Origin: Cochliopodium minus
Lineage: Eukaryota; Discosea; Himatismenida; Cochliopodiidae
Length of the DNA stretch: 26,275 bases
Direction: 5' to 3'
Assembly: GCA_024220525.1 (NCBI GenBank)
Contig: JAMYWO010000038.1
Location: forward strand, 192,985 to 219,259
Positions 649 through 23,800 of this stretch are shown piece by piece. The notes beneath the pieces are model-generated. The model saw nothing but the letters and a program-made list of their open reading frames with translations, searched no databases and was not told the DNA's origin. A program made the position numbers and the translations under genes. Each line of letters begins with the position of its first letter. Within the stretch, counting starts at the first letter, position 1.

Positions 649-3600
649 TTATTTCTTTTCAAGCAATGGCTCTTCTAAACCTTGATTACTGTTTGTTGAG
701 CGTTTTTTGACATAGAAAACAACTAAAATAAAAGGTTTGAATAAATTTTTTAAAATTAATTGAGGAATTCGATCGAAATTACCAAAAGCAACTACCAAAG
801 CAACCACAAGAAAAGCCACAATAGGTGCTACAATCAATACTGCCAAACTTGGAGAGGAACCATTATTGGATGTGGTAGATGATTTAATAGGAGATGAGTT
901 AACGAGCTCTTTTAAAACAATTAAATAAATAAAAATACAATTTTTTATAAAATTACCTCTCAAACTTGAACTAGGACTAGTAACATAGATAGGCAAGTTG
1001 GAAGTACAAGAAGCACTCTTCAAGTCAAAAGGACCGATATCATAAGGAGATGCCCTGGTGTTCAAACAGTAATCGAATTTGACATCAGTTACAGTGTCTC
1101 CTTTACCACTTACTGCAGTTCTACCTGCAGTAGTGAGACGAAAATCGTACAGAGTAGGGTTGGTGACATAGGTGTTGAAAGTAGCAAGGTTTCCTACTAG
1201 TACGTTGGCTCCTACTGTTGACACTCCACTATCCCTGTTTTTAAATCTTCCATTGTAAAGATTGTTCCTCAATATTGCATTGGAAGGTGAAAAACGGATG
1301 TCTTTATAAAAAATTATTTAAAATAATGAAAAATATATTAAATATTTTGGTTTTAATAATATTAAAATGAATTTTACCAACTCCGACTGTATCATAAAGA
1401 ATGTTGTTGAAAATGTTGATCAAAGTAGCTCTTTCTAGGTAAATTCCCACATCACTTGTGGAAGCAATGATATTGTTCATGATGTATGATACACCATTGG
1501 CGTCTTTCAAATAAATACCAAAACTGGTTCCTGATTTGGAATTAAGAACCAAATTTGAATCAATAGTGACACTTCCAAAAGAGGCTACTATCACACCACC
1601 TTTTAAAAAAATATAAAATTTAAAAATGGTGATGTTTTAAAGAATAGTTATTACCCGCAGTGTTGGAAGCAGTAGAAATATCATGAAAATAATTTCCTTT
1701 GATTACCCAGTTATTACCACCTGTGATTGTGATCTTATAAGTGGAAGCAGGTCTTGGAACTCTATCATAAAAATTGTTTCCAATGATCAACCCAGAAACA
1801 CTAGTAGCAGAGTTAACTTTTATTTGATAGTTAAAATTGATGATTTCATTGCTCCTGATGATCAAGTTGCTGGAGTTTCCCTTGATATGAAAGGCGTGGT
1901 CACAGTAAGCAGGATCTTGACATTTTCCTTCGATAACAAGGTTTTCAAAAGTCCATCCAGATGATGAATCAACTAGTAGGTTTTTTATTATTTATTTAAT
2001 TAATTTATTTCTATTTCATTAGTTACCAACAAATCCTTCGACAACACTCGACCCAGGGTTGATAAATTTAATCTAATTTTGATTTTATTTTAATTTATAC
2101 AATTAAAATATAAAAAATTTCATAGTTTTTAAATTTTGTTTCCAAAAAGGAATAAGCAAAGAGAGAATATATAATAAACGATTTTTTTTGAAAGAAAAAA
2201 AATAAATAAAAAAAATAAAAAAAATTTTTACAAAGACAGTTTGTTTTGTTTGTGCTCTCAGGGTTGCATTTGGTAAATTGGCCACATTAATTCTTGACAA
2301 GTTGAAAGTATAAGTACCAGGAGAAATGGTGATAGTATCTCTTGCTCGAGCATTTGCTTTTTTCATGAAAATTTATAAAGAATGTTTTAATATAAAAGAT
2401 AAGTAAAATATATTTACCTATTGCACTCAAAATATCATTGTTGGTTGCTACAGTGATAACTCTTCCTGAAGGAACTGTTGCTGTAGTTGTTGGTGTGAGA
2501 GTGGACGGTTTGAGGGATGAAGGCGTGAGAGTGGATGACTTTGTAGTTGGAGTAAGAGTTGATGGAGTAAGCACTGTTTGTTTTATTGTTGGAGTGAGAG
2601 TGGTTGTTTTGGTGGTTGGAGTGACGGTAGACGGTTTGAGTGTGGATGGAGTGAGAGTGGATGGCCTTAGTGTGGATGGAGTAACAGTAGAAGCTTTGGT
2701 AGTTGGGGTAAGTGTAGATGGTATTTGAGGAACAACAGTGGTTTGTATTGTAAGAGGCTCGATAATAATGTAATCCAAAAACTTTAAAAATTAAAAATAA
2801 TTTTAAAAATGAGTTTAAAAAAAGTGAATTTACAGTATACTCATTGTTATCCCCAATACTGAATGTTAAACAACAATCATTCAAATCAACAATGGCAGAT
2901 TTGGCAAGAATAGAGTTGGAAATATTGGTTGCTTGATTAAACCAGATGACTCCTTCTACTTCCAAGTAATGACAACAAGAGTACCCTTTTGTTGCCCTTC
3001 CAATTGAAACAGTTACATTGTATTTTCCATTAGGAACACACTAATAAATAATAAACAATAAATAAATATTAAATAATTTGTAATTACCCAGTTGTAAGTA
3101 AAAGCTTTTCCATAATCATCAAAAATACTAGTTCTAGTCTGCACAGAAAAACCAGAAACATCAATGAAACTATAAAGTTGACGTGCTGTGTTGGTAAGAA
3201 CTATTTTTAAAAAAAAATAAAAATAAAAATAAAAAAAATCGAAAAATTAAACTGTTTTGTTACCATTTCCTGTAAACCCTTTGGTTTTGTCAACAGCAAA
3301 ATCTGGTCCCCAACCTTGTTTTATCCAACCAACACCAAGGCCATAATCAACATTAGGATCTTGAAAGTTGATAGAATATTTTTGTAAAGGATTAGCATTT
3401 GGGCAAGAAGCAACGAGAGTAGGTAATGTTGAACGTTTTCCTTCGAGGTACAATCCAAGTTCTTGTCTCAATTTAGCATGTGCGTCACCATCTTGATTCC
3501 ATGTTTTAAGAGATGATGCAACTGTCTCAATCATTGGGTCCAATGGTGATGCAGACGCAAAATCTGGATATTTGTTTCCGTTAGCCATGAAGAGGTATTC

Positions 3601-5766
3601 ATAATCTTCTGATGATTCTCTAAACAATTCAAATCTTAAGTTTGGCTTTGACCCTGTGAAGAATTGGTTGATGGCATAATATCCCCTAAAAAACAGTTTT
3701 ATATAAATTAATTAATAAATTGATGAATCTTATTTACCAACCGCTTGCTCTCCACTTCCACCCAGCCCAACTGATAATTCTGACATGCATACCTTGACGA
3801 TTTACTCTTTTTTTAAAAATAAATTAATTAGATTATTATAATAAAATAATTTTTTTTTACTGAGTTGGATTGTAATATGGGTCTGTTATTTTTGTTTAAC
3901 AAAAAAATGATTAATTTAAAAAATTAACAATTTTTTTCAAACCAGAATCTTGTTCAAGAGAGTATAACCACAATAATTCGTCAGGATTATTTTTCATTCT
4001 AGTTTGAGCATACTCTTTGTTTCCCGGAAGATCAAACTGAACAAGACTTGCAATCCAAATATCGTACTTGGCATTTCCAAACTTTGTATTCTCACAAATT
4101 CCAGGTTTCATTTCCTCACTGATCATAATTTTAAGATCTGGTGCAACTGCTTTTATCAATCTAGAAAGAAAAGCTGCTTGGTCATAATCTTCTTGGTTTT
4201 GAGGTTCGTTTTGAACATAACTTTCAAAAAAGTTCAAAAAACCATAAATACTAATTTTAAAATAAATTCTTTACTAATATCCTTTGTTCAACATTCCATT
4301 GTTTGACAAATAGTCACGAAGTGCTTTGCAATAGTTTTGCCATTTAACATTATAAGGTAAAGCAGCAAGATCAGCATAAGAAGTAGCTATTTTATTTAAA
4401 GTTTAAATTCATAAATGAAATACTTTTGATTTTCCGAAATAAATTACGTGTTCCTGCAGTCGTTCTTCCATAATTATCTTAATTTCAAATTATTTATTAA
4501 AATAAGAAATAAAATGAATAATAATTTACCAACAGAGTTGTGCCCGCAAAATTTACTTGGTCTTTGTTGGGAGTTTGAAACAAAGTTAACAAAAACAGTA
4601 TCTGTAAAGCCAACCCCATTCCACCCAATTCCCTTGATCCATTTATCAGCAAGTGCTTTTAGTTGGTATTGTACGTTACGCTCTGTTACACTTTCGTCGT
4701 TGAAATAAGTACAGTTGTTGTTAGATGCATCGTAGGTGATTGCATAGTTAAATCCTGATGGCCATGTTGGTCCACCAGTTGGAGATCCTCTGTGGTTGAA
4801 GAAAATTTGTTTCATATTGTCATCAGTGCTTGATGCTCCAAGATGAGAATGGAAATTATATTTTGTTGGGAGAGCAAAATTGAATACATAAAGCTATATA
4901 TTCATACAATTTGATTAATATTATGATTATTGATAAGATATATGTTGATATAATTTCTTCAAATTCATTTGATATCTAAAATATCTTTTATATGATTGCA
5001 TAAATTGTATTGAAAAGTATATTTTTACGGTGATTGGAATGGTATATGATCCAATTTTCATATTGGTGGTATAATATCCTGCAGTAGCTGTAGGAGGAAC
5101 ATACACGGTGACCCAAATCAAATTATTGCGTGAACTAAAAGAAAATGGATGTAAATATTCAATAATTTGAAAAATAATATTTTACTTATCAACTGTTATT
5201 TGAGTACCTGTGACCAAATATTCAGGCCATTGTGTTTGAGTCTCATGATAATTCAATGAATCAATGGTAATTATTTGATTGGCGAGATTTGGGAAAGGAT
5301 CAACAGAGACAGACACTGTTCCCAAATTGCTGTTTGGACCAATAGCAATCTGAAATGGTTCATATTCATTTTTTGCAGATTCCAAATGAATACCACTCCC
5401 TAATAAGAATATAATCAAAAGCAAAAATAATTATTAAATTGGAGCATTATATATTTTCGATTATATTTTAAAATTTTACCTGTTGCAGTTGGAATTGCAT
5501 CTGATCTCAATATCTTTCTTGAATTGGAACTGTTAATAAAAGATTATTGTTGTTCGTAATTTTATATTCAAATTTAATAATTGACCTCGTAAAAAAGTTG
5601 ACTGATCCAGAGCTTTGGGTAAGTTTATATGTCCATGATTGAGAAGGATTTTGACCAAGACATAAAATCAAAAATAAAGATGCTACAATTAACACCTTGA
5701 TAGATATCCTGTTTCATATTCATTTGTAAATTTTGAATAGAATATATTAAAAAGGAGTAATTACAT
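649..5766 (-). CDS. Secreted membrane-anchored GH123-like / beta-helix fusion protein (multi-exon)
   Basis: Many short exons join into one protein of very roughly 1,300 residues. The order is: signal peptide (MISIKVLIVASLFLILCLGQ); beta-rich N-terminal domain (about 5640-4870); DUF4091/GH123-type catalytic-like barrel (about 4860-3600, with YDIWIASLVQF, GMHVRIISWAGWKW and FELFRESSEDYEYL); a beta-sandwich resembling a carbohydrate-binding or malectin-like module (about 3500-2780); a Thr/Pro linker (2480-2725); a right-handed parallel beta-helix, pectate-lyase/chondroitinase-B style (about 2450-1000, with AIANARARDTITISPGTYTF); and one C-terminal transmembrane helix (about 870-700) with a short tail ending EEPLLEKK. 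Known GH123 enzymes are beta-N-acetylgalactosaminidases. The Asp-Glu catalytic pair appears here as Asn-Glu at 4205-4210. The start codon seems split by an intron (5709-5764). The terminal 60-nt intron (723-782) is frame-neutral and could be retained. I see no promoter or stop between the two halves, so I treat it as one gene; two genes remain possible. Inferred site: cell surface or endolysosomal lumen. Confidence 0.75.
2121..2224 (+). mobile_element. Second copy of the retroelement 3' UTR, inside an intron
   Basis: From CATAG at 2121 the sequence matches 464 onward almost base for base for about 50 bases (shared core TTTTGTTTCCAAAAAGGAAT) and loosely for another 40. It then ends in an A-rich tail, as the first copy does. 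It lies antisense within the intron 2073-2231 of the beta-helix gene. That intron is 159 nt, longer than most introns in this gene. A severely 5'-truncated LINE insertion is the simplest explanation. Any target-site duplication is obscured by the A/T-rich flanks. Confidence 0.65.
2480..2725 (-). repeat. Coding minisatellite for Thr/Pro/Ser-rich linker
   Basis: The minus strand encodes about 15 variants of a five- to six-residue unit, S-T-L/V-T-P and T-T-K-x-S/T. On the plus strand this appears as repeated GAGTGAGAGTGGATGG-like blocks. Such linkers are usually heavily O-glycosylated and extended. Here it separates the GH123-like and beta-sandwich part from the beta-helix. Unit number may vary between strains. 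Confidence 0.85.
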
Positions 5767-5943
5767 TCTTTTGTAAAAATACTCAAAATGATTTTTTTTT
5801 ATATATTGAAAATTTATTGTTTATTTTTTTTAAACTATTAACTTTTCTTAAATTAAAATCAGAACCTTCCACAAATTATCCAAATCCTTGAAATCCAAAA
5901 AATTTGAATGTTCAATTCGTATATATTGAAATTTTAAAAAAAT

Positions 5944-7100
5944 TTATTTTCTCAAAAATTTGAGCATGTGCAGAAAAAGCCTTCTTGGTAAAATGGATAG
6001 GATCGTTTTCTTGGTAGATCTGATTTTCAACAACAATATTTTGATATGCTTGATATCTTGGTTGTTGTTGACCATTTCAAAAATTTTTTGTCTTATTTTA
6101 TCATCTTTGATAGAGTTTCCCTGAAGAAAATTAATGAAAATAATATTGGTATTTTCTTCCAACAAATTGCAAATGAAAGAAGAACATTCTTGTACGAGAC
6201 TACAATTAAGGATACTTAATTTTGAGACAGTTTCGTTGTATTTGAGAGCACTACATAAATCTTTGAGACCTTCAGCAAAGAAATGATTTTGGTTTAATTT
6301 GAGGGAATGTAAAGATCTGTTTACATACAAACACTCTGAAAACAATTTTATTTCTTCTTTTCCCATTAAGTTTTTTTCTAGATTCAAGTTTCTTATTTTC
6401 TTGTTTTCCTTTATAAATTCTGTAATTACTTTCACTCCTTTAATGGTTATTTTAATTCCTCTCAAAATCAAACTTTTTATTGAACTGTTTTCCTTTAGAG
6501 AATTGCACAAATACTCGATAGAAATATCAGTTATTCTGTTGTATCCTTTTTTTTTTTAGATTTATTGTTTTAAAAATATTAATTTTAAATTAAAATTTCA
6601 CCTAAATTTAATTTCTTCAATTTATCGTTTTTAGTGAGAGATGATGCAAAATATTTTATTCCTTCATCTGTAAAATCATTCATTGCTAAATTTATATTTT
6701 TCAATTTTTTGTTGTGTCTTATCATATCTGCAAATGACCTCAATCCTTTATCTGTCATATTATTTTTAGTGAGGGTTATATCCACAATATATTCATTTGT
6801 GTTCAAAAATGAAGCAATCATTTTCGATCCCTCATCCCCCAATGAGTTATAGGCCAAATTTATTGTGTTCAAATTTTTGTTTGAGAAGAGATCAAACATT
6901 ATATTTAATTCATTCGTTGTCATACAAGCATTAACCAATTTGATGATATTCAAATCTTCTGAATCTTTGAAATGCTTGACGATGTAGTAATAATCTTGTA
7001 ATTCCAATCTTTGAAAAAAATCCAAAATCCCATTCTTTATTATTGGTTTGTTTGTTTCCAAAATACTGGTTTTCAAAATAGCAGATGTATAGTTGCCCAT
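5944..7100 (-). CDS. Leucine-rich-repeat protein, ribonuclease-inhibitor type
   Basis: Two exons (7100-6602 and 6545-5944) joined over a 56-nt intron give 366 residues. The junction restores a textbook LRR motif (LKKLNLGYNRITD), which supports the splice. Repeats of the form L-x-x-I/L-x-L-x-x-N-x-x-x-x-x-G run from about residue 75 to 300, of the ribonuclease-inhibitor/NLR class, and form a curved binding surface. No kinase, NACHT or other effector domain is present. The N-terminus MGNYTSA has Gly2 and Ser6, fitting an N-myristoylation signal, so it may be membrane-tethered. The C-terminus (LPRRLFLHMLKFLRK) vaguely recalls F-box or SOCS-type helices, but this is weak. It lies upstream of, and on the same strand as, the GH123-like gene. 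Partner and role are unknown. Confidence 0.85.
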
Positions 7101-7308
7101 TTTCCAACTTCTCTTTTTTATTTTAGAAAATATTAAAAATAAAAAAAGAGGCTTCTTTATAATCTATATCTGATACTTCTATCAATCGATTTAAAACATC
7201 ATTATCTTGTTGCATATTCAAAATTTCAACATATTTTACTAAGATAGGATATTCTTCATTAAAAGAGAAAATCAATTTCAAAAAATTTAGAAACCAAATT
7301 TCATTGGA
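7101..7308. promoter_or_regulatory. Divergent intergenic region between LRR gene and transporter
   Basis: About 208 bp separate the two divergent start codons, so both core promoters should lie here. A-rich leader sequence precedes the LRR ATG (GAAAA-ATG). I see no clear TATA box or other named motif. A minus-strand open frame crosses the region but looks accidental. Confidence 0.4.
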
Positions 7309-9576
7309 ATGGATAACTATAATATCAATAGCAGTGTTGATTCTTATAAACCATTCAAAAAAAATATATCTTACACACTCGGGAATTATGCAGAGTTGGA
7401 TCCAGAGAATGAATCTCTCATTTCAGAAGAAGTTGAATATGGAAGAACTACACCAAACTATCAGATGCAAAAAATGTATCAATCAAGTCTATATATAGGG
7501 TAATTAACAAGATAATATAAAAAATAAAATCAGATTTCCATTATAGAAGTGTAATCTGAAATAAATTTTAAATAAAAAATAACTATTTCGAAAATACATC
7601 TAATTTTCAAATCAAATAAACAAATTCTATCCATTATTCCAATAATATCCAAAATTGATTAAATTTCACCAAAAAAAATTATTCAATTTCGAATAAATAG
7701 AATAAAACAGAGATACAGTAATGTAAAAAGACCAACAATGAACAAAAGATGGAGAACAATGGTAGGAAAATACGATGAACTTTTATCAGACAGACAAGAT
7801 CTAGTAGAAAAAGTAGAAAAGGACATGTCATCCACCCCCGAATTTAAAAGATGGAAATGGATAGTGTTAGTTTGTGTAATGTTAATTTACTTCGCGGGGT
7901 ACTTATCTTTTGATAGCATTGCCGCAATTGAAGACAGTGTCCAAACAGGACTCAATATTACTACTGAGCAACTTGGAATTGTTTATGCTGTTTACAATTT
8001 TCCAAACACAGTCATGGTTATCGTAGGGGGTGTTTTATTCGATAAGTTAGGTGTCAGGAAAAGTAAAAATGAAAAAATTATTCAAAATAAAAAATAAAAA
8101 TGAAAAAAATAATATAATTCAATAGGTACAATGTTGTATGTATCTTTACTGACAATAGGAAGTTTAATTTCGTCCTTCGCATTGGGACCATTTGTAAAAT
8201 CATATTACCTCTTGTTGATTGGAAGATTTATTTATGGCGTGGGCGCAGAGTCCACTTATATAGCTGTAGATAGTATTGTCGCGATGTGGTGGGACGGAAA
8301 AAATCTTGCTTTTGCAATGGGATTACAAGTAAAAAAAAAAAAATTATGAATAAATAAAATTAATAAATAATGATTAAAAATTTTAAATTTTTAGGTTGCA
8401 GCAGGTAGATTGGGTGATGTTTTTGGGTACATGATACTTCCAACTATTGCAAGTAAGATAGGATATTCTGGAGGTATTTGGATATGTACCATTGCCGTAT
8501 GCTTTTTTCAATAGGAATATTTTTTAAATTATAAATATTTTTTAAAGGTTATTATTGGATTTGGAGCCACCATTTACTTTTGTTTTCTCGACAGAAAAGC
8601 AGAAAACTTCAAAAAAATATTGGAGGAAGAATACGACGCAAAAGAAGAAAGAATAGTGAGTGACAGTGATCAAGGCTTTGATATAAATAACAAGGGACTT
8701 CTTGATAGTGAAAGATCTCTTATTAAATCATCCAAATATGACAACAATGAAAAATTAACTTGTAAAAAATTTGGTAATAAAATCTCCAAAAATATATTAC
8801 AATAACAAATCAAACAAATTATTTTTAACCACATGAATTTTCTAGGAAGAGATTTGATCGATTCGTTAAAACAGGTGAAAAACTTTTCTTTATTGTATTG
8901 GATCGTCACTATCATCGTAACTATCTATTTTTGTTGTGTATACACTTTCATGAATTATGCTGAAACTTTATTGGGAATTAACTATGGTTATGGTTCTGTT
9001 GCTGCTGGAAGGTAAGAATTAATAAAAACAAATGAAAATAAAAATAAAAAAATTCTAGAATAGCTTCTGTTGTAAGCTCTTCTGCTCTCGTTCTTTCGCC
9101 AGTTTTTGGTGTTGTATTGGACAGGATAGGTCATAGAGGACATGCTGTGTTGATATCTTCTTATGGGCTGACTCTTGCTTTCATAATTTTTGCTTTATCC
9201 CAAGATACAATTTTGATGTAAAATAAAAAAATAGAAAATTTTTAAATAATTTTTAAAATAAAAAAGGTATATTGCCATGTCTCTAATTGGGGTTGCCTTT
9301 TCTTTAGTAAGTGCAGGTCTTTGGCCTTGCATTACTTTTTTGGTTGAGGAAGATGCGTATGGGGCTGCGTTTGGAATAATGGGAGCAGGAATTAACACTG
9401 CTTCTCTTTTGGTAAATTATTTGTTGGGCTATTTCATCAACAAAAACCAAATGCAATATGCTATTCTCATCTGGCTCATTCTGGCAGTAATAAGTGTATT
9501 ATTTTGTGTTTGGTGGAATGTTCTTGATCGTAAAAAAGGATGTGATGCTCAAAAGCCTTCTGCAGATCTTGAATAA
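7309..9576 (+). CDS. MFSD1-like major facilitator transporter (lysosomal type)
   Basis: Eight exons (7309-7499, 7719-8062, 8126-8328, 8395-8496, 8548-8773, 8846-9011, 9059-9217, 9267-9576) give 566 residues in one frame. About twelve hydrophobic segments are split by a charged central loop, as in the MFS fold. Family hallmarks include the segment around YAVYNFPNTVMVIVGGVLFD, the helix GRFIYGVGAESTYIAVDSIV and W-x-x-GKNLAFAMGLQ, which match MFSD1. MFSD1 in mammals is a lysosomal dipeptide exporter that partners with GLMP. The first exon supplies a cytosolic tail with an acidic dileucine signal, ENESLI, of the kind that sorts proteins to lysosomes. The 219-nt first intron is the least certain part: translation could instead begin at the ATG at 7738. 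The gene converges on Vps34 with 77 bp between stops. Confidence 0.83.
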
Positions 9577-13501: not shown

Positions 13502-15259
13502 TTAAAGTTCATCATGAGAAATGAGCTTGACAGCTTCGGAAGCAGAGTTATCCTTAATCCAAGCAGCAATAGATTTAGCATCACGAGCACCTTGGAATTG
13601 AAGAGGGGTAGCCTTAGCATCACGCTTGTAAAGCAAGATGGTAGGGAAACCCTTAACATCAAAGTGGGCGGTATCAACATCATTAGCAGTGAGATCAATT
13701 TTACCAATGACAACATCATCAACCTTGGAGAAAAGTTCTCCTAACTTTTCGTATTCAGGAACCAAGTTCTTGCAATGTCCACACCATGGAGCATAAAACT
13801 CTACGAGGACATCCTTGGTGGTATCGTGAACGATTTCATCGAAATTCTTTCCGACTAAGGTGACAACATTTCCTTGGGTTTCAGGGACAGCTTCACTCTT
13901 TGATGCATATTTGTACTTTCCGCTGATGACTCCTTCGATCCATTCCTGAATGTTCTCTTCATTCCATTCTCCTTCAAAGACGATAGGCTTGTTATCAGTA
14001 AATGAAAGTAAGGTGATTGCAGGAACTACTTTTCCAGATGCTCCCATTCTATCCATGTTAGGTCCAAAGTTTTCGTGGCTGATATATCCAAAGGAGAATT
14101 GAGTATATTGAGTTGCAAATTTTGAAATCACATCAATTTCTTGTTGTGCATTTTCTCCTTTGGTCTTGATCCATGCCAATAACAATTTCTTTCCACGAGA
14201 TGCATAGTTCTTAAAGTTGGATGCATCAATTTCTTGGAATACAGGGAAGGTGCTGTCGAACAAAAAGGTTGCGAGTAATTCTGCGGTTGCCAAATTCTCT
14301 TCTGGAACAACTTGTTGACCATCCTTGGTGAAATATACAACAGATCCATCAACATTTCCATTAAACAATGCGCTATCAGAAACATATGCAAATTTCATTT
14401 CAGCCAATCTTGAATCTTCAGCTGCAACAAGATATGCTTTGAATGCTTTATATTTTTATAAAAAAAAGAGATTAATATCATTTGATTTCAAAGAATAAAC
14501 AAAGATTGGAATGAATAAACAAAAGATTAGAATGAAATATTCAATTGAATATATTATATTCTTTCCAATTAAAATATTAAGACAAGTGTTTTAAATTATT
14601 TAAATTTATTTCAATCATAGTAATGATTGAAGATCATATGTTGAAAGGAATTTTAAATATAATTTTATTAGATAAATTTATTATTATTTTTTACCATCAT
14701 TCTTTTGGGAAGAGTATGCAACAACATTGTTGGAGTTGGAGAATTCTTTAATAGATTCGGCAGTGGTGAGTTCAACTGCAATTGGTCCACTTTTCTTATC
14801 CAACCATGAAATGATTCCTTCAGTAGTTCTAGGTCCATCAAATTCTTTTTTATTTCCATTTTTGAAAAAAGCAACTGTTGGATATCCCCTAACATTATGT
14901 TGAGAGCAAAGATCATTCTCAACAGTACAATCTACTTTAGCAATAACATATTTTCCACCAACTTGAGTTGCAACTTCATCAAATACTGGTTTCAATGTTT
15001 TGCAATGTCCACACCCTTTATTATATAAAAATTATTATTTATAAAAATTAAAATATTTTGTAATGAATAGATGTTTAATAGAATTCAATAATGATTCTTT
15101 AAACTTTTATAAATTTTTACATGGAGCATAGAACATATTCAAGACAAATTCATTATCTTTGATGGTGCTTTCAAAAGTATCTTTGTTCAAATCCAATACA
15201 GATTGTCCATTTGCAAAGATGCAAAAGGCAAATAAAAGGGTAATAACCAAAAGTTTCAT
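13502..15259 (-). CDS. Protein disulfide isomerase, ER lumen, HDEL-terminated
   Basis: Three exons (15259-15121, 15015-14695, 14445-13502) give 467 residues. A signal peptide (MKLLVITLLFAFCIFANGQ) is followed by thioredoxin domain a with active site WCGHC at residues 47-51, two non-catalytic b-type domains, thioredoxin domain a' with WCGHC at residues 374-378, and the C-terminal ER-retention signal HDEL. This is the a-b-b'-a' layout of classical PDI, slightly shorter than animal PDI and without a long acidic tail. It oxidises and shuffles disulfides in secretory proteins. The first intron splits the active-site Trp codon (T|GG). Codons are richer in C and G than in neighbouring genes, as expected of high expression. 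An A-rich leader (AAAAAAAA-ATG) precedes the start. It diverges from Vps52 across 292 bp. Confidence 0.96.
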
Positions 15260-20823: not shown

Positions 20824-23800
20824 ATGGATTCTCAATCTTTGCAGTATAAAGCACCAAAACAACCAGTCAAATCCAAACCAATTTTGATGCATTCTGAAAA
20901 AGCGAGTCTATTCAAATAGTAAGTGAAAAAAAAAATATATAATATTTCAAAAAAGAGAAAAATATATTTATTATAAAGATATCAATTCAAAATTCTATTC
21001 AATACATTTCAAAATCTCCATTAATATTCAAAAATTATTTTAATTTTCATCTTGAAGATGAATTAAAACAATATGAATGGATATATTCAATATAACATTT
21101 TAGAGATTATTATTTATTCATTTTGTTGAAAATCAAAAAAATTATGAAATATGTTCCAAAAATAAATTCAACATTAACCCAATGTTACCAAAATGAAGTG
21201 ATAGAAATACAAAATCATATGCTACAAAAGGATCAGTTGTAGCATCTGTACATTATCAACCAGATAATGCAGTATATCAATTCGTGGTTGCCTTTTCACA
21301 ACAGAATATAGCAACAACAATAGATATAAGTAGTAATTTCTCCTTCAAGGTACAAGCAAGTTCCTATACAAACTATAGCGACATTGATGGAAGTGCATAT
21401 TCCTTATATTTCAACGGAGATCAAACTGCAGCAGAAACATTCGCTAAATATATCGCCATTGCGAAATGTGCTGCAGATAAATATCAGAATGTGGTAACAC
21501 AGACATTAGTGGATGGAAAAGGAACTCCTATTGTGACTGGAGATTCTCTCGCTGTAAACATTCGAAAAAATTTAAAACAAAGAAAAAATATTTAATATTT
21601 CAAAGAATTTCAAGATCAATTTCGGATATTAATCTATCTTTTATTTTTATAGGTTGTTTATACTGGATGGTTGATAAAGACTGGGAAAGTAGATGTAGTT
21701 TTTGATACAAACAAAGGAAAGTCAGTTTTCAAATTGAAAATTGGAGAAGGAAAAGGTAAAAAAAAAACACTATTTTTTAAAAAGAAAACTTGAATCAAAT
21801 CATTCTATTTTAACAAAAAAAAAAAATAAAAGTTATAAAGGGATGGGAATCTGGATGTGTCGGAATGTTGAGAGGTGAGACAAGAGCCATTGTAATTCCT
21901 CCACAGTTTGGATATGGACAAAAGGGGTCAGGTCCAATACCACCAAACTCTGTTCTTTTGTTCGAAGTACAGTTGAAAAAGGTAAAGAGATCTAAAGAAG
22001 AAGGAGGAGGAGAAATACCTGAACCTATATTACTTTCTGAACCAACTCCATCCCCTACCAACAACAAATCAAACATTGTTGAAAGAATGAAGAAGTTGGG
22101 AGCTAACACATTAAACGTTCCACAGCCTACCATAGAAGAAGAGGAGGACGACTTTTTCGAGGAGGATATCCCTCAATCTATTCCACACCAGAGTGTTTCC
22201 CTTTATGTTCCTCCTCCTGAAGACAATGAAGAGTCCAGACGTCTCAAAGAACAAGTGGAGAAGATGAGAGAGCAAATGGAATTGATGAAACGCGAGCAAG
22301 AAAAAATAGAGGAGGAGAAAAAGAGAAAGCAAGAAGAGGAGTTAAAGAAGCAAAGAGATTTATTTGAGAAGCAAAAAGAGGAGTTGGAACAACAAAAGTT
22401 GAAACAAGAGCTCGAAAACCAGAAGGAACTCTTGAAGCAACAACTTCAAATGACTCAGATGCAACCCACCATCATCTCCCAACCTAGCCAGTCTGGAGTC
22501 AACCACGTCCAACAATACATCGAACAATCAAGCTTCCAAAAGAACATCATGAACATCGTCGACCAAGTTCTCAAGAAAGTTGTTAACATCGAAGAAAGAG
22601 TTGACAAGTCTTTCATCGGTACCAGCAGCGAAGGCACTTCTACTCTTACTGGACCCGTTCTTTTGAAGACCATCAAGAAGATCGTGGATGACAATGAAAC
22701 TATGAGAAAGGACTTGATTGATAAAACTGAGAAAGGAGAAATCCTCAGAGAGAGATTAAACTCCATCCACGAGAAGAACGAGCAGCTCATTGACGAGAAC
22801 AACTCTTTGCTCGAGAGAAAGAACGACTCGATGAAAGAGCAAGCCGAGCTCATCCGTAAGAAGATGAGATCTCTCATGAACGAAAAGGAGGAGATCGAAA
22901 ACGAGCACAACGCCTTGCAAGAAAAGATGGGAATCGCCAAAAAGAAATACATCGAATTGAGCAAGTCTTACGAGAGATTGAAAGACGAGTTGAGTTTGTT
23001 GAGAGAAGAAAAGGAGAAGAACAGAATCATCATTGAGAACGCTCATTCTACCAAGATCACTTATGAATCCAAGATCGAGAACTTGTCTAATGATTTGAAG
23101 AGTGAGAGGGAAGCTAAGAAGGAGGCTTTGAAGCTTGTTCAGTCTTTGAGAGACGACTTGCAAGAAGAAAAGAGTGAAGTTGAACGTCTCAAAGATTCCA
23201 TCAAAGTAAGAAAAAAAAAAAATTTTTTTAAATTTGTTTTTAATTTTTAAATTTTTAAATTTCCAATCACAAAATTAATTTATTAACATTTTATTTTATT
23301 TCAAAATTTTTTAACTTTAAAGTTTTTAAAATGCTTACAATAACACAAATTAACTTTTTATTAAAACAAAAATAAACAACTTTTAATAAACTTATTTTTT
23401 AGGAACGTAAAGAAAAATATGAGGAAATGGTACAAAGAATGCAATCCATTCATGAAGACGAGAAAAACACATTCAAAAGAGAAGTGGAAACCCTCGAAAG
23501 AACCCTCAAGGAAGAAAGACAAAGCAGCGGAACCCTCTCCGAAGAGCAGATTCAAAGATACGAAGAAAGAGAGAAAGATCTCCTCCTTCAGTTTTCCCAG
23601 CAAAAGAACAATGCAATTGAGTTGGCTTTGAAAGAGTTGAACCAGAAGTTTGATTTGGAAAGAAAAGAGATTCAAAATGAGTTTTTCCAAAAGGGAAAAT
23701 CTGAGGGTAACATTTTTTTTTCATTCAAAAAATTGTTTTATTTTTTATTTTCAAAATATTTTTCATTTAAAAATAAAACATTAAATAAATAAAATATTTG

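Follow-up and report, generated by a model that had tools for sequence, protein, structure and literature searches.

The beta-N-acetylgalactosaminidases of the GH123 clan, such as NgaCa and NgaAt, have an N-terminal beta-sandwich, a barrel and a DUF4091-like region in that order. According to the available portion of Sumida et al. (PMC11087588), nine residues are conserved across all groups of the clan, the Asp-Glu pair is conserved at 94% among 734 DUF4091 sequences, and mutants of characterised enzymes in which this Asp is replaced by Glu or Asn show little to no activity. Right-handed beta-helices are found in polysaccharide lyases, among them Pel9A with Lys273 as base and Asp calcium sites (accessible part of PMC10992409) and RbmB, which acts on Vibrio exopolysaccharide (accessible part of PMC11637428). 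The window analysed here, 26,275 nucleotides of the protist Cochliopodium minus (contig JAMYWO010000038.1, positions 192,985 to 219,259), carries on its minus strand (649..5766) a gene that appears to encode a protein composed of a signal peptide, a GH123/DUF4091-like head, a middle domain, a Thr/Pro linker, a right-handed beta-helix, one transmembrane helix and a short tail. The head resembles the GH123-clan enzymes in the order of its three regions; unlike them, the protein is fused to a beta-helix and a membrane anchor, and the catalytic Asp-Glu pair of its head is replaced by Asn-Glu. An earlier account made from the letters of the window (the sequence-only reading) could not reveal that elsewhere in this genome the beta-helix and membrane anchor stand behind a different head.

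Bacterial-type polysaccharide-active modules are here recombined on a membrane anchor within one protist genome, and the locus offers a natural test of whether Asn-Glu can stand in for the GH123 Asp-Glu pair. Should their location prove to be the cell surface or the phagosome, the proteins would be candidate means by which microbial grazers cope with bacterial capsules. No description of this architecture was found in a literature search that ran mostly without subscription papers and had eukaryote protein sets outside its scope; for GH123 in protists and DUF4091 in eukaryotes it returned termite-gut work and PMC11087588, neither of which, the latter in its available portion, is about this architecture.

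Results

The head comprises a GH123 N-terminal beta-sandwich-like domain (about amino acids (aa) 20-175; 4864..5653, minus strand, as for all features of the gene) and a catalytic-barrel-like plus DUF4091-like region (about aa 176-540; 3436..4863). Intron 8 was first modelled as 24 nucleotides (4274-4251), and comparison with NgaAt and relatives revealed ten residues too many directly ahead of the catalytic motif. A 54-nucleotide version (4221..4274), similar in length to most other introns, takes out these residues and replaced the shorter one in view of stronger profile and Pfam scores: the E-value (E) against a profile of 14 relatives improved from 2e-15 to 1.1e-19, and the independent E-value (iE) of the catalytic-region segment from 39 to 0.0023. 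Pfam GH123_cat (PF13320), without a match in the uncorrected protein, appeared after the correction (E 2e-4) with 21.3 bits, below its cut-off of 23.1; PF22680 also stays below its cut-off (16.6 versus 27 bits).

When the corrected head was compared with the PDB by phmmer, matches were obtained to NgaCa of group 1 (8k2f, E 2.8e-8), to 8k2j (9.4e-7), which was taken as NgaAt of group 2 from the available portion of PMC11087588, to 8k2h (1.4e-5) and to one more entry at E 0.85. The profile matches in three ordered segments (iE 1.9e-8 over aa 32-180, where NgaCa also aligns, 0.0023 and 0.91), and none of 1000 shuffled controls reached it at E 10 or better. Homology spans the N-terminal domain, the barrel and DUF4091, which follow one another as they do in the clan, and the GH123-like character of the head, as first read, stands. 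The 14 relatives consist of a Phocaeicola protein (L024), 12 of the 16 further plasmid records obtained with it and L043; 13 of the 17 plasmid records were used (L024, H5-H11, H13, H14 and H18-H20), H12 and H15-H17 being left out. A tblastn search of plasmids with the head gave no relative at E 0.1 and one at E 0.4, namely the Phocaeicola protein, which served as stepping stone and itself matches 8k2j (6.9e-145) and GH123_cat (1.2e-54). L043 was drawn from 398 sampled genomes of a single phylum, two of which matched GH123_cat and one of which did so above the cut-off; L044 from the same search was dropped, its long frames looking by eye like other proteins. Two pattern-based scans of viral contigs yielded no relatives, and a search of the genome found no second head copy at E 0.001, all eight matches falling within this same gene (scoring was limited to the best candidates). 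As a separate observation, the match of Phocaeicola L024 (1978-3666) to 8k2j means that either a gut bacterium has a protein very close to the plant group, provided that 8k2j is Arabidopsis NgaAt, or the assignment of the chain needs checking.

In the alignment with the 14 relatives, five of the nine clan invariants (NgaLy numbering, head residue second) are kept: W115=W137, E328=E339, Y392=Y420, G427=G456 and R478=R474. The remaining four are not: D95 is replaced by E118, D327 by N338 and W431 by Y460, and a deletion has removed the loop carrying Y466. Leaving aside the catalytic pair, four of seven invariants are thus kept (W115, Y392, G427, R478) and three are not (D95, W431, Y466). Among the relatives themselves D95, G427, W431 and Y466 are each present in 14 of 14, Y392 in 13, and W115 and R478 in 12. 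Asn338-Glu339 (4205..4210) stands at the place of the catalytic pair, which is Asp-Glu in 11 relatives, Asn-Glu in one (L045) and part of no such block in two (L043, L055). The exception, L045 (724-2547), is a Parabacteroides DUF4091 protein adjoining a SusD gene and has Asn-Glu-Asn where the family has Asp-Glu. Because Asn-Glu replaces Asp-Glu, three other invariants are changed and Asp-to-Glu/Asn mutants of characterised enzymes have little to no activity (PMC11087588, available portion), the head, which descends from the GH123 clan, is better not classed among the working GH123 enzymes. The two bacterial GH123-clan-like proteins without the Asp-Glu block are an observation in their own right, Nostoc L055 lying between glycosyltransferase and epimerase genes.

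A search of the genome (44.65 megabases in 598 contigs, with many short introns) with the beta-helix module found it at three other places. On contig C36, L019 (1016-5490) is a complete 22-exon gene for 963 aa with a signal-like N-terminus, a TPAPS linker and a head of another kind, itself a beta-helix (Pfam Beta_helix, 1.5e-8); it is 44% identical to the window gene over the linker, beta-helix, transmembrane helix and tail. Next to it, L020 (1675-5620) is a tandem copy that breaks off at a lone N, where two pieces of the assembly were probably joined. Over 783 codons this pair has a ratio of nonsynonymous to synonymous substitution rates (dN/dS) of 0.13, its exons being 96.7% and its introns 91.2% identical. 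The third place, L021 on contig C155 (about 5763-7569), holds the 3' part only, with frame gaps and a stop, and is likely a pseudogene. Within the genome the C36 head was found only in the C36 pair at E 0.001, and among plasmids the L019 head had no relatives at E 0.001. Judged from these alignments, the membrane half of the protein, that is linker, beta-helix, transmembrane helix and EPLL tail, is a reused cassette.

The beta-helix module itself (about aa 807-1164; 997..2475) matches a profile of 19 bacterial homologues at E 8.8e-64 over aa 767-1163. This Proteobacterial family (L023 and L025-L042, all 19 used in the alignment) is 27-33% identical to the window module over its whole length; its members, at 406-515 aa, have no room for a GH123 head, and in none of the 19 does a transmembrane-like segment occur beyond residue 100. 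Among 37 residues invariant in the bacterial members, the window module retains 26 and the C36 paralogue 25, of which 24 are common to the two. Eight of the eleven departures of the window module fall in aa 993-1036, which includes the stretch aa 993-1023 (1496..1588), where Lys, Ser, Gly-rich loop and Cys of the bacterial proteins are replaced. Both protist modules lack the invariant Lys and the greater part of the Gly-rich loop, and this sets the window module, which matches the family over its full length, apart from the bacterial members; K934, R956, D1038, D1063, R1065 and R1085 are kept.

A bacterial family member, rather than the window module itself, was modelled and is predicted to have a lyase-type fold closest to PL9, in a structure alignment that left out one of the 19 members (L023). 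Together with the bacterial profile match, this suggests that the right-handed beta-helix of lyase type proposed earlier was correctly recognised. For Pel9A of PL9 and the PL6 alginate lyases, no coincidence of their catalytic residues with those of the window module is demonstrated: the sequence match of the bacterial profile to 1ru4 covers the N-terminal part only and gives no residue alignment over the Lys273 and calcium-site region. The invariant Arg of the family (R1065) aligned with Arg241 of AlyGC in a second segment of chance-level score; Lys220 and Arg241 are the catalytic Lys/Arg pair of AlyGC. Vibrio RbmB is not among the sequence matches of the bacterial profile at E 0.001. A NosD label on the beta-helix, scoring 35.8 of 300 bits, was set aside as a generic beta-helix signal.

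Hydrophobic segments lie close to both ends of the protein. With a 19-residue hydropathy window the value of 1.6 is reached in two segments only, one beginning at residues 1-4 and the other at 1203-1221 in the numbering before correction, which agrees with the signal peptide and single transmembrane helix that had been read as framing it. The predicted signal peptide MISIKVLIVASLFLILCLG (5654..5766) is brought into frame if, as we infer, the start codon is split by intron 1 (AT/G). The predicted transmembrane segment lies within aa 1196-1223 (712..855), is interrupted by intron 21 and aligns in the paralogue. It is followed by a presumably cytoplasmic short tail ending EEPLLEKK (649..711), in which EPLL, an acidic residue and Lys are common with the paralogue tail. 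As the two tails are otherwise different in sequence, EPLL may be a sorting signal; presumably it is not an exact fit to the acidic dileucine consensus. Between head and beta-helix lie the middle domain (aa 541-714; 2752..3435) and a Thr/Pro/Ser-rich linker (aa 715-806; 2476..2751). The middle domain had been called a lectin-like beta-sandwich, a label that stays a guess, there being no Pfam or NCBIfam match and a best PDB match at E 0.79.

The 22-exon coding model (5766..649) has no internal stop and one terminal stop and reproduces exactly the coordinates given by the sequence-only reading; after the correction of intron 8 it specifies 1243 aa, with all 21 introns GT-AG and 47-159 nucleotides long. 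Exon 15 (2781-2418) reaches, without a stop, from the last residues of the middle domain across the linker into the beta-helix, an in-frame stop at 2793 upstream of it falls inside an intron, and from residue 508 to residue 1029 the corrected protein has no intervening in-frame Met. From this open junction exon, the lack of a Met and the linker-helix-transmembrane order of the paralogue, the locus is very likely a single fused gene, as had been claimed. The membrane half is reused behind another head in the C36 paralogue and an artefactual junction is therefore unlikely.

Discussion

The reading that we prefer, and to which we give about an even chance, is that of a membrane-anchored, outward-facing protein with a glycan-binding or weakly active GH123-clan head on a beta-helix cassette. 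Such a single-pass type I membrane protein would reside at the surface or in the endolysosomal system, with linker and beta-helix holding the GH123-derived head away from the membrane. The head would bind or slowly process N-acetylgalactosamine-type glycans, whether from bacterial prey or from the coat of the cell itself, and would not act as an ordinary beta-N-acetylgalactosaminidase. The beta-helix would mainly be a rigid, glycan-contacting stalk for interchangeable heads.

Several points weigh against this proposal. Its stalk role and location are what we infer, and the gene model and protein readings are drawn from the genome sequence of one species. As the beta-helix keeps 26 of the 37 invariants, R1065 included, cleavage may still be possible. 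Asn-Glu is no proof of inactivity, given that one of the 14 relatives, the Parabacteroides protein beside the SusD gene, also has it, and GH85 enzymes use an Asn in this role. The bacterial relatives of the beta-helix that sit in exopolysaccharide clusters are those of Photobacterium only, and none of eight loci from other bacteria share those neighbours. A wider version of the proposal, in which a beta-helix carrier anchored in the membrane, of common descent with bacterial proteins from exopolysaccharide clusters, is joined by Thr/Pro linkers to different carbohydrate-active heads as a plug-in surface system, one GH123 head working with Asn-Glu, seems doubtful to us.

An active GH123-clan beta-N-acetylgalactosaminidase or hexosaminidase could instead be paired with an active polysaccharide lyase, which comes close to the machine for two sugar linkages suggested in the sequence-only reading. 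In the head Tyr420, Gly456 and the catalytic Glu are kept, as are the six beta-helix residues named above, and the Photobacterium kin in exopolysaccharide clusters and the precedent of the RbmB lyase (PMC11637428, accessible part) would fit. Set against this are the little to no activity left by Asp-to-Asn changes in characterised enzymes (PMC11087588, available portion), the altered or lost equivalents of Asp95, Trp431 and Tyr466, and the absence from both protist beta-helix modules of the family-invariant Lys and the bulk of the Gly-rich loop. With Asn-Glu and three other altered or lost invariants in the head and eleven departures in the beta-helix, the suggestion is weakened and we consider it unlikely.

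The head could also be active by an altered mechanism through an Asn-Glu dyad in the manner of GH85. Asn338-Glu339 is in register with Asp-Glu, and the Parabacteroides relative and the precedent of GH85 speak for it. The explanation draws, though, on a single head sequence, and the change of three more invariants suggests that constraint on this site has been relaxed; we regard it as distinctly unlikely.

That the gene is decaying, with a degenerate head released from selection, could account for a head that is single-copy in the genome search made and whose catalytic residues are replaced, but the frame is open across 22 exons, several structural residues are kept, and the related C36 pair, on which selection was measured, shows strong purifying selection, making decay improbable. 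Two adjacent genes joined wrongly, one GH123-like and one for beta-helix and transmembrane helix, are a highly improbable source of the model, for although it comes from genomic sequence only and an ATG in the beta-helix frame occurs at 2366, immediately ahead of exon 16, a start there would yield no signal peptide and would cost the protein its linker and the opening portion of its beta-helix, which the C36 paralogue has, and the junction is covered by one open exon and its order recurs behind a different head.

As to the surroundings of the gene, guanine plus cytosine amounts to 28-31% in five profiled 5-kilobase stretches of the window. By eye, leucine-rich-repeat-like open reading frames lie directly upstream of the gene (5944-7100, minus strand), and the window also has a protein-disulfide-isomerase-like frame (13502-14407, minus strand) and an FKBP-plus-coiled-coil-like frame (21865-23250, plus strand).

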